NCBI RefSeq assembly: GCF_900176145.1
Contig: NZ_FWWY01000001.1
Coordinates: forward strand, 315,517 to 379,516
DNA length: 64,000 nt
Direction of reading: 5' to 3'
Origin: Sulfobacillus thermosulfidooxidans DSM 9293
Lineage (GTDB): Bacteria > Bacillota > Sulfobacillia > Sulfobacillales > Sulfobacillaceae
The notes under the pieces are model-generated. The model did no database searches. It worked only from the letters and a program-made list of their open reading frames with translations, and was not told where the DNA came from. A program made the position numbers and the translations under genes. How positions within the stretch are numbered: position 1 is the stretch's first letter; each line of letters starts with the position of its first letter. This document shows, one piece after another, positions 5,561 through 42,412 of the stretch.

Positions 5561-6214
5561 ATGGCATATTTGGATGATAAGATTCGTGGCCAAGTCAGCC
5601 AATTTTTTCAAGACCTTAAGGATTCAGTAACCATCCAGATTTATCCTGGTCCGAACGGTGAATTGTCTCAAGTTTTCATCGATCTCGCCAATGAAGTTGC
5701 TGACCTTTCTGATCTTGTCATGGTGACCCAAACCACGGAAGCGCCAGCCTTAGAACCTGGCCATCCGGGTGACGAAGCCATTTCAGGCCCCATTGCCAAT
5801 TTGCTGGACAACAATGGGAATCCCACCGGAATCCGCTTTGTGGGCATTCCGAGCGGACACGAATTTGGCGCATTTCTGGAAGACATTAAAGCCGTCTCAA
5901 CCCACCAGGTTGCACTCAGCGACAAAGCTAAGGAAGCACTGGCCCAAATTAAAGAACCTGTGCATATCCAAGTGTTTACGACCCCTACGTGACCATACTG
6001 TCCCCGGGCTGTACGCCTGGCACATGATATGGCACTACAATCCCCGCATATTATTGCGGATATGGTCGACGCGAGTGAATTTCCGGATCTCGCCGGGAAG
6101 TACAACGTGTATGGCGTACCCAAGTCTGTCGTCAATGGAAAATTGGACGTGACGGGTGCCGTGCCCGAAAACCAGTTGCTAAAAATTGTTCTGGATTCCG
6201 TGGGACAATCCTAA
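5561..6214 (+). CDS. glutaredoxin-like protein disulfide oxidoreductase (PDO), candidate selenoprotein with UGA at codon 144
   Basis: Reading through a TGA at 5990-5992 gives 217 residues that match two-domain glutaredoxin-like protein disulfide oxidoreductases of thermophiles along their whole length. The C-terminal domain runs HIQVFTTPT-UGA-PYCPRAVRLAH, so the UGA replaces the first Cys of the CPYC active site; the frame continues with the conserved NVYGVPKSVVN cis-Pro segment and ends in TAA. The N-terminal thioredoxin-fold half has lost its own CxxC (PGPNGEL at that place), so the UxxC would be the only redox centre. The start is ATG 5561 behind AAAGGAGGTGA. A stem-loop lies 17 bases after the UGA. 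UGA is used as a normal stop in other genes here. Selenocysteine is the favoured reading; recent nonsense mutation or UGA-to-Cys decoding are alternatives. Confidence 0.75.
6004..6020 (+). promoter_or_regulatory. SECIS-like stem-loop in the PDO gene
   Basis: CCGGGC (6004-6009) pairs with GCCTGG (6015-6020), with one G-U pair, around the loop TGTAC. The apical loop begins 17 bases after the UGA and has G as its second base. Both fit the published consensus for bacterial SECIS elements (loop 16-37 bases after UGA, G within the first two loop positions), quoted from memory. The stem is short, so this is a candidate only. Confidence 0.45.
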
Positions 6215-6229
6215 CGCAACGCACGCGTC

Positions 6230-6265
6230 AAAAAGAGCAAGGCACCTAGGTGCCTTGCTCTTTTT
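6230..6265. terminator. bidirectional intrinsic terminator
   Basis: A perfect palindrome with the core AGAGCAAGGCACC / GGTGCCTTGCTCT is flanked by A5 on the left and T6 on the right. It can therefore end transcription from both the plus-strand PDO gene and the minus-strand glutaredoxin gene, whose TAA stop overlaps the T-run. It ties the two UGA-containing genes into one convergent unit. Confidence 0.93.
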
Positions 6266-6501
6266 TATTCCCGAACCCCTAAGGTTCGGGCTAATTTCGG
6301 TCGGTTAAAGCCTACAATAACGGTTCCATTGACAATGATCACCGGCACGCCGGTTTGTCCGGATTTGCGTTGCAGTTCCTGAGCCGCTTGGGGACTTTTC
6401 GAGACATCAATTTCTTTAAAGGGTACCTTGCGCTCTTGAAGAAACCGCTTTGCATTCCGGCAATGGACTCACGTCGGTGTGGTATAAATCACAACCGCCA
6501 C
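6265..6501 (-). CDS. YruB/NrdH-type glutaredoxin-like protein, candidate selenoprotein with UGA at codon 11
   Basis: From a GTG at 6501 with GGGGGTGGCACA upstream, the frame reads AVVIYTTPT-UGA-VHCRNAKRF and continues through FKEIDVSKSP, GQTGVPVIIVNG (cis-Pro) and VGFNRPKLARTL to a TAA, 78 residues in all. This is a complete one-domain glutaredoxin of the small YruB/NrdH-like kind with UGA (6469-6471) at the first Cys of the expected CVHC. Nothing else in the gene looks damaged. A weak TTGC/GCAA hairpin with loop CGGAAT follows the UGA, with G second in the loop, but it starts only 9 bases after the UGA, closer than usual. Its partner may be the convergent PDO or a peroxiredoxin elsewhere. 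Because of the UGA, a standard annotation would miss the gene. Confidence 0.72.
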
Positions 6502-39412: not shown

Positions 39413-42412
39413 GTGAGTCAACCTGGTTGGGAAATTATTGTCGACGGCCAGCGTTTGTCTGGTCAAAAAGGCCAGACCATTTTGGAAGTGATGTTGCAAA
39501 ACGGGATGGATTTGCCGCATATTTGTTACCATCCCAATCTCGGACCGATTCAAACCTGCGACACCTGTATTGTGGAAACTGAAGGCGGCTTATTACGCGC
39601 GTGTGCGACCCGCATCGCCCCGAATATGGTTGTAAACACGACTTCGGGCAATGCCAAAGACGCCCGGGTGGAAGCCATGAACCGGATTCTCCATAACCAC
39701 CAGCTTTATTGCACAGTCTGTGATAACAACAACGGCAACTGTGTGGTACATAATACCACCGAAATGATTGGAATCAGCCACCAAAAATATCCCTTTGAAC
39801 CCAAACCCTATAAACCGATTGATGATACCAATCCTTTTTACCGCTATGATGTCAACCAATGTATTTTGTGCGGTCGCTGCGTTGAGGCGTGTCAGGATTT
39901 AGAAGTCAACGAAACCCTTTCCATAGACTGGAGTCTTGAACGTCCGCGCGTGGTATGGGATGGCGGGGTCGATATCGGTGAGTCTTCTTGCGTCTCCTGT
40001 GGACATTGTGTGAGTGTCTGTCCCTGCAATGCCTTGATGGAAAAAAGCATGTTGGGTGAGGCCGGTTATCTCACCAATATACCGGCTGACACGTTAAAGC
40101 CGATGATCGAGTTTGTTGAAGATATTGAACCCAGTTTACCCCCGGTATTCAAACTGTCCGATATCGAGTCCACCATGCGTCAAAGTCGGATTAAACGAAC
40201 CAAAACCGTTTGCACATACTGTGGTGTCGGTTGCTCATTTGACATCTGGACTAAAGACCGTCAAATTCTCAAAGTCGAACCGACGTATGAAGCACCCACT
40301 AACGGGATTTCCACCTGTGTCAAAGGCAAATTTGGCTGGGAATTTGTCAATAGTCCGGATCGTTTAACCTCGCCCCTCATCCGGCGCGGCGACAAGTTTT
40401 ATGAAGCCAGCTGGGAAGAAGCCTACCAACTCATTGCCGAGAAAATGACGGCCATTAAACAGCAGTATGGACCCGATGCATTTATGTTTATCGCCTCCTC
40501 CAAAGCATCTAATGAAGAGGCGTATTTGTTGCAGAAACTGGCACGCAATGTGATTGGTACCAATAACGTCGATAACGATTCAACATATTGTCAGGATCCG
40601 GCCACCTACGGCTTACGGACCACCGTGGGATACGGCGGTGACAGTGGATCCATCCACGACATGGAGAAAGCTGATTTGATCATGACCATTGGCTCCAACA
40701 CCGCGGAATCCCATCCCGTTTGGGCCACGCGTGTTAAACGAGCCCATAAGCTCAAAGGAACCAAATTGGTTGTGGTCGACATTCGTAAACATGAGATGGC
40801 TGAACGAGCCGATGTGTGGGTCAAACCCAAGCCCGGAACCGACGGCATTTGGATTTTGGGATTATCGAAATATCTGGTCGATCAAGGCTGGATTGACCGG
40901 AAATTCTTGACCGAACGGGTTGATGGTGTCGATGACTATATCGAATCACTCGCACCCTACACGCTCGAATATACCGCTCAAATGACTGGCATTCCCAAAG
41001 AAACCACGGTCAAAGTGGCCGAAATGATTCATGAGGCTCATGCCATGTCTATTCTGTGGGCCATGGGTGTCACTCAGCAACGAGATGGCTCAGAAACGTC
41101 TCTCGCCATTTCCAACCTCCTCTTGCTCACGGGTAATTTTGGACGCCCTGGTACGGGCGGCTATCCCTTGCGGGGGCACAACAATGTGCAAGGGGCTTCA
41201 GATTTCGGAGCGAAACCACATTTCTTACCGGGTTATCAAGATCCCTCAGATGACGAAGTGCGCGCTCGCTTTAAAAAAGTCTGGGGTACAGAAATTCCCA
41301 AAAATATGGGCGTAAACAACCAAGAACTCACGGGTGAAATTCTTAAAGGACGCATCAAAATGCTGTACGTGGTAGGAGAAGATACTGCGTTGGTTGATGC
41401 CGATGCCAATCAGGTCCGCGATGCCTTCAGCCAGTTAGAGTTTATGGTTGTTCAAGAAATCTTTATGACTAAAACCGCGCAATATGCGGATGTGATTTTA
41501 CCGGCTTCTCCTTCCTTGGAAAAAGAAGGAACTTTTGTCAACACCGAACGGCGGATTCAACGATTTTATCAAGCGATGGAACCACTGAAGGGCACGAAAC
41601 CCGACTGGATTATTTTGCAAGAGGTCGCCCAACATCTCGGTGCCAATTGGCCTGTTTATCGCCACCCAAGTGAAATCATGGATGAGGTTGCCCAGTTAAC
41701 CCCGCTTTTGGCTGGTGTTCGCTATGATCGCCTAGAAGGCTATCACACACTCCAGTGGCCGGTAGCTCCCGATGGAACCGATTCGCCGCTTCTTTATATC
41801 GATCGATTCCACAAACCAGGCGGGAAAGCGCAGCTAACGCCGATGTCTTTCGTCGGTCCCAGTCAAGAAGCCGAAAAATTCGACCTGCATATCAATAACG
41901 GGCAACTTCTCGAACACTTCCACGAAGGTAACATGACCTATAGAGTGCGAGGAATCGAACATCTTGTCCCCGAAGTGTTTGTCGAAGTCTCCAAAGAACT
42001 AGCTATGGAACGCAACCTCAAAGATGGGATGATGGTGCGTCTTGTCTCACCAACGGGTTCGGTGAAGGTACCGGTGCTCATCACGGACAGGGTAAGCGGA
42101 CACGAACTCTATTTACCCATGAATTCCCGTGGCGAGGGTGCCATTAATAACATCACGGGCACGGGAATCGATACCCGTACGGATACCCCCGCCTATAAAG
42201 AGACGGTGGCCTATATGGAAATCCTTGATGAAGAGGCTCCCAACAAGTCGCCGTTACCGCGCTATAACTGGCGATTCCATAAACGTCATCCCCAACTTGG
42301 TGTCCAAGTCGAGAAAAAATGGCGTCGGCGCGACTACATTCCATTAGTCACGACCCCAGCTGGAAAAAATCAACCGCTAGAGGAGGATGACCATGGCTCA
42401 GCCCACCACTAA
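39413..42412 (+). CDS. formate dehydrogenase, YjgC/YrhE-like molybdenum/tungsten enzyme, Cys type
   Basis: 999 residues. An N-terminal 2Fe-2S domain (Cys38, 49, 52, 64), a HxxxCxxCxxxxxC motif (HNHQLYCTVCDNNNGNC), two 4Fe-4S ferredoxin sites (CILCGRCVEAC, CVSCGHCVSVCPC), then the molybdopterin domain with CTYCGVGCSFDIWTK. The residue that binds Mo in place of selenocysteine is Cys393 in DSTYCQDPATYGL, as in Bacillus YjgC/YrhE. It oxidises formate to CO2 with electrons to NAD or another carrier in the cytosol. No Tat signal is visible. GTG 39413 follows AAGGAGGCATGCCTT. The DUF1641 gene overlaps its end. Confidence 0.93.
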   Translation: MSQPGWEIIVDGQRLSGQKGQTILEVMLQNGMDLPHICYHPNLGPIQTCDTCIVETEGGLLRACATRIAPNMVVNTTSGNAKDARVEAMNRILHNHQLYCTVCDNNNGNCVVHNTTEMIGISHQKYPFEPKPYKPIDDTNPFYRYDVNQCILCGRCVEACQDLEVNETLSIDWSLERPRVVWDGGVDIGESSCVSCGHCVSVCPCNALMEKSMLGEAGYLTNIPADTLKPMIEFVEDIEPSLPPVFKLSDIESTMRQSRIKRTKTVCTYCGVGCSFDIWTKDRQILKVEPTYEAPTNGISTCVKGKFGWEFVNSPDRLTSPLIRRGDKFYEASWEEAYQLIAEKMTAIKQQYGPDAFMFIASSKASNEEAYLLQKLARNVIGTNNVDNDSTYCQDPATYGLRTTVGYGGDSGSIHDMEKADLIMTIGSNTAESHPVWATRVKRAHKLKGTKLVVVDIRKHEMAERADVWVKPKPGTDGIWILGLSKYLVDQGWIDRKFLTERVDGVDDYIESLAPYTLEYTAQMTGIPKETTVKVAEMIHEAHAMSILWAMGVTQQRDGSETSLAISNLLLLTGNFGRPGTGGYPLRGHNNVQGASDFGAKPHFLPGYQDPSDDEVRARFKKVWGTEIPKNMGVNNQELTGEILKGRIKMLYVVGEDTALVDADANQVRDAFSQLEFMVVQEIFMTKTAQYADVILPASPSLEKEGTFVNTERRIQRFYQAMEPLKGTKPDWIILQEVAQHLGANWPVYRHPSEIMDEVAQLTPLLAGVRYDRLEGYHTLQWPVAPDGTDSPLLYIDRFHKPGGKAQLTPMSFVGPSQEAEKFDLHINNGQLLEHFHEGNMTYRVRGIEHLVPEVFVEVSKELAMERNLKDGMMVRLVSPTGSVKVPVLITDRVSGHELYLPMNSRGEGAINNITGTGIDTRTDTPAYKETVAYMEILDEEAPNKSPLPRYNWRFHKRHPQLGVQVEKKWRRRDYIPLVTTPAGKNQPLEEDDHGSAHH

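Follow-up and report, generated by a model that had tools for sequence, protein, structure and literature searches.

Protein disulfide oxidoreductases (PDOs) of the TIGR02187 family have been listed among selenoprotein families since 2006, with representatives in Carboxydothermus and Symbiobacterium (PMC1794560), and later reviews list the family as TIGR02187, with the motif UxxC (PMC13188914). The described members, including those of Carboxydothermus hydrogenoformans (ABB15282.1) and Symbiobacterium thermophilum, contain two thioredoxin domains and carry UxxC in the C-terminal one (PMC1794560, PMC13188914). The current model of the bacterial selenocysteine (Sec) insertion element (bSECIS) comprises a loop of 3-9 nt, a stem of 4-16 bp, a distance of 16-37 nt between the UGA and the loop and a minimum free energy (MFE) of at most -7.5 kcal/mol, with a G within the first two loop positions, mostly as NG[G/U]NN (PMC13188914). 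Furthermore, tRNA-Cys species with a tRNA-Sec-like body, U73 and a GCA anticodon, denoted selC*, form a described class (PMC7609411).

We analysed a stretch of 64,000 nucleotides (hereafter, the window) from the genome of Sulfobacillus thermosulfidooxidans DSM 9293 (3.86 Mb, 99.9% complete). The genus Sulfobacillus is known from the oxidation of sulfide minerals under acidic conditions. In the window, a PDO gene (5561-6214, + strand) contains an in-frame TGA (5990-5992, + strand) in place of the first Cys codon of the CPYC active site. The frame starts with ATG at 5561, reaches the TGA at codon 144 and remains open for 73 codons up to the TAA at 6212-6214, and its read-through translation gives a product of 217 amino acids, with U144 in the context TTPT-UGA-PYC. 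The position of the TGA and the length of the open frame beyond it are both as described in an earlier note on this DNA. The read-through product matches NCBIfam TIGR02187 (PDO_seleno_TRX) with 201.7 bits over residues 6-211 (cut-off 185) and has the U/CxxC motif in its C-terminal thioredoxin domain, as U144-P-Y-C147. The AlphaFold model of the protein (pLDDT 89.9) consists of two tandem thioredoxin folds and matches 1j08, 1a8l and 2ayt over the full length, the best matches being archaeal and Aquifex PDOs and the N-terminal domain of AhpF. The full-length fold is shared with the PDOs of Pyrococcus furiosus (1a8l) and Aquifex aeolicus (2ayt, 2ywm) at a TM-score of ~0.84, and the C-terminal CPYC of these structures aligns with UPYC of the Sulfobacillus protein; 1a8l differs from the latter by a second CxxC (CQYC), in the N-terminal domain, and by Cys in place of Sec. 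The N-terminal domain of AhpF (1zyn, 6il7) shows the same double-thioredoxin fold, whereas the Sulfobacillus PDO is a stand-alone protein that lacks the flavin reductase part and carries UxxC.

Apart from position 144, C147 (TGT codon 5999-6001, + strand), the predicted resolving Cys, is the only cysteine of the protein. Thus, the N-terminal CxxC, a typical PDO trait, is absent, and U144-C147 would be the sole redox pair, in agreement with the earlier note, which had described the loss of this motif and a single redox centre. In this respect, the Sulfobacillus protein differs from the described TIGR02187 members, and most relatives outside the genus keep the motif; it is also missing in Hydrogenibacillus and some other relatives. 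Given these relatives and a score that still exceeds the cut-off, the N-terminal CxxC does not define TIGR02187. In the C-terminal domain, the pair V186-P187 is invariant among 12 paralogs and orthologs, and Pro187 (codon 6119-6121, + strand) would, by analogy with the thioredoxin fold, be the cis-Pro that faces the UxxC site.

Relatives of the PDO were collected with a single-protein scan; the paralogs are too diverged for an alignment-based scan. The genome contains three additional PDO genes, L018, L019 and L020, whose TGA falls at the corresponding position; two of them (L019 and L020) score well under the TIGR02187 cut-off. A fourth paralog has TGC. The presence of four Sec-type paralogs and one Cys-type copy in a single genome is a further difference from the described TIGR02187 members, and we found no description in the literature consulted of a genome that combines four Sec-type PDO paralogs with the loss of the N-terminal CxxC. 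The N-terminal part of the Cys-type paralog (L017:1501-2052, - strand; C1:1908436-1908987) is frameshifted; the Cys-type copy in a sister genome (L033 in G006) is one open frame. Members with TGA are spread over several bacterial families of the phylum. The earlier note hinted that PDO-type proteins were absent among known selenoproteins, which is incorrect, as TIGR02187 had already been listed as 'homolog of AhpF N-terminal domain (Grx-like domain protein)'. Given that selenoproteins of this family were already recognized in 2006, the Sulfobacillus PDO is an added member and not a new kind of selenoprotein.

The host genome encodes the complete set of genes that characterizes a Sec-decoding organism: tRNA-Sec with a UCA anticodon (64.5 bits), selA (556.4 bits), selB (357.6 bits) and selD (360 bits), each above the curated cut-off. 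This is the set whose absence, according to the earlier note, would have spoken against a selenoprotein. The selD gene has its own in-frame TGA, in the context SKSG-U-GCK, the site that is occupied by either Sec or Cys in SelD proteins. A gene for FdhA with an in-frame TGA is located elsewhere in the genome (C1:1926149). Sec-type FdhA has been described in all Sulfobacillus genomes examined (PMC4378227), and a Sec-containing peroxiredoxin was detected in S. thermotolerans by proteomics (PMC7409299). The window also contains a formate dehydrogenase alpha gene without an in-frame stop (40205-42211, + strand).

Downstream of the UGA, the transcript can form a SECIS-like hairpin (6004-6020, + strand) with a 6-bp stem (6004-6009/6015-6020), the loop UGUAC (6010-6014) and an MFE of -9.2 kcal/mol. 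The stem starts 11 nt and the apical loop 17 nt after the UGA; the six pairs and the loop sequence given in the earlier note were thus correct, and its distance of 17 nt is that to the loop, not to the stem. With a 5-nt loop, 6 bp, 17 nt and -9.2 kcal/mol, the hairpin falls within all four ranges of the bSECIS model. Among 20 distinct Sec-type sequences, 98.3% of the hairpin pair cells are standard pairs, the stem shows 12 two-sided changes, at three pairs, and loop positions 2-3 are G-U in every sequence (NGUNN). The covariation score was attained by none of 500 shuffles. Because the hairpin lies within codons for conserved amino acids, part of its conservation is due to coding; when the encoded residues and the local codon usage are taken into account, six out of six pairs would be expected by chance in 3-4% of cases for three of the paralog groups and in 34% for the remaining one. 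Stem pairs are broken in four of the five Cys-type genes. In the fifth (L035 in G005), a TGC-type PDO gene, the SECIS-like stem is intact, with the loop CGUGC, and the same genome also carries a tRNA-Sec-shaped tRNA-Cys(GCA). When the genome was searched with a covariance model of the hairpin, only the four TGA-containing PDO genes were recovered at E < 1e-8, with the next best match at 0.1, and the Cys-type PDO paralog scored 11.7 bits. The model is too family-specific to reveal additional selenoprotein genes, and nothing clear was found with it beyond these four. Taken together, the pairing, the MFE and the agreement with the bSECIS model fit a candidate bacterial SECIS at 6004-6020. For the resolving Cys (5999-6001 and its orthologs), the 20 distinct Sec-type sequences of the genus use TGT without exception and never TGC, which may point to a constraint on the RNA itself directly below the stem.

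A second gene with an in-frame TGA converges on the PDO gene. It encodes a glutaredoxin-like Uxx-star (seleno)protein (6265-6501, - strand) that matches NF041212 with 72.6 bits (cut-off 66), and its TGA (6469-6471), in the context TTPT-UGA-VHC, occupies the first active-site position in every locus of the genus that contains the gene. The UGA at the active site and the score above the curated cut-off are as expected of the Uxx-star family, from which the protein differs in having Cys at the second position of the pair (UVHC). No convincing conserved hairpin was found for this gene with RNAalifold and a stem scan, as the candidates differ between species.

The codon at the UGA site of the PDO was compared across 57 related loci, which were fetched by name and include those of the genus Sulfobacillus: 25 have TGC, 11 TGT and 21 TGA. 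Outside the genus, the Cys codons TGC and TGT occur at this site, as a selenoprotein reading would predict, and some of the more distant relatives have TGA; every aligned relative has C or U at the first active-site position. Considering the machinery, the Cys in relatives, the hairpin that fits the bSECIS model and the loss of CxxC, the selenoprotein reading offered in the earlier note is supported. Sec insertion at the UGA is clearly the best explanation, and we consider it very probable that the gene encodes a Sec-containing PDO of the TIGR02187 family. In the pathway that we infer, from Sec insertion itself to redox chemistry, electron donor and substrates, SelD would produce selenophosphate, SelA would turn Ser-tRNA-Sec into Sec-tRNA-Sec, and the hairpin at 6004-6020 would bind SelB, which would bring the Sec-tRNA-Sec to the UGA at 5990-5992, allowing translation to continue to the TAA at 6212. 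The N-terminal thioredoxin domain, having lost its CxxC, would presumably serve a structural or substrate-binding role, and the C-terminal domain would hold the sole redox pair, U144-C147, near Pro187. This pair probably cycles between the selenolate/thiol and selenenylsulfide states, and, judging from the family, the protein may function in cytosolic disulfide reduction or exchange.

The alternative that survives best is that the UGA is decoded as Cys, either fully or under selenium shortage. In addition to a canonical tRNA-Cys gene, the genome contains an extra tRNA-Cys(GCA) (C1:1064426-1064514; L002:1501-1593) that scores 49.9 bits as tRNA-Sec and has acceptor and T stems of 13 bp in total, a long variable arm and U73. 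With a tRNA-Sec-like body, U73, a Cys anticodon and a canonical tRNA-Cys alongside, it resembles the selC* class. Such tRNAs, together with SelB, reportedly recode UGA with Cys in E. coli. By this route, the tRNA-Cys(GCA) would be charged by CysRS and carried by SelB to the hairpin, where it would mispair with UGA. The published selC* tRNAs are those of anaerobic organisms, and their 8/4 arm has a bulge (A51a) (PMC7609411), whereas the MFE fold of the Sulfobacillus tRNA has 9 bp and 4 bp without a bulge, and an 8/5 reading is also possible. However, this tRNA was identified in only four of the eight genus genomes (G000, the host genome, G005, G006 and G007). It was not found in G001, G002, G003 or G004; G002 and G004 also gave no match to tRNA-Sec and may be incomplete in this respect, but G001 and G003 keep the UGA and have tRNA-Sec. 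Moreover, given the complete Sec pathway in the genome, Cys decoding would be at most a supplement, and we regard it as unlikely. Equally tentative is the proposal that the selenoprotein UGAs of this lineage, including that of the PDO, are doubly programmed, for Sec by tRNA-Sec or for Cys by the SelB-carried tRNA-Cys(GCA). Cys-type PDO paralogs are held by the same four genomes that have the selC*-type tRNA-Cys, and the two may or may not be linked; with few independent lineages, and with G002 and G004 possibly incomplete, this co-occurrence is a lead only. A search of the literature for tRNA-Cys and UGA in connection with Sulfobacillus yielded no useful results.

It is far less likely that the UGA is a true stop, such that only the 143-residue N-terminal domain is made and the remainder is a decaying remnant. 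Translation table 11 does terminate there, and genuine genes in the window also end in TGA, yet the region beyond the UGA encodes the catalytic domain and is the more strongly constrained part of the gene. Across the eight Sulfobacillus species, all of which have TGA at this codon, pN/pS is 0.064 downstream compared with 0.164 upstream (pS ~0.65), the synonymous sites near the UGA differ at ~65% between species, that is, near saturation, the mean identity of the downstream protein segment is 93%, and no second stop was found in any species. The same TGA is also seen in three paralogs and among distant relatives. The nine other large open reading frames of the window that end in TGA have open extensions of 1-29 codons, compared with 73 for the PDO. 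Because of these nine frames and their short extensions, the possibility that UGA is read as sense throughout the genome was rejected. A sequencing error, with TGC or TGT as the actual codon, would require a single base change but is negligible in probability, with TGA present in the genomes and metagenome-assembled genomes of eight species. Among these is the complete sequence of S. thermotolerans Kr1 (CP019454.1), whose locus has the same coordinates (980360-981007) as the match in G007. Thus, the retention of the UGA, the downstream selection and the TGA in paralogs and relatives leave little room for either a pseudogene or an error.

To conclude, the Sec-type PDO of S. thermosulfidooxidans is a well-supported added member of a known selenoprotein family, for which several lines of evidence converge, and an example of the genes that ordinary gene finding truncates at the UGA. 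Its less ordinary traits are the four Sec-type paralogs, the lost N-terminal CxxC, the Sec-type glutaredoxin-like neighbour and the selC*-type tRNA-Cys. Several predicted Sec-containing redox proteins, namely four PDOs, the glutaredoxin-like protein, SelD and FdhA, thus occur in a genus of acidophiles that oxidize sulfide minerals. The combination of these proteins with a tRNA-Sec-shaped tRNA-Cys provides a natural test system for selenium-dependent incorporation of Sec versus Cys at UGA, and, if dual decoding indeed takes place, the catalytic residue of the PDO would switch between selenium and sulfur with the selenium supply.
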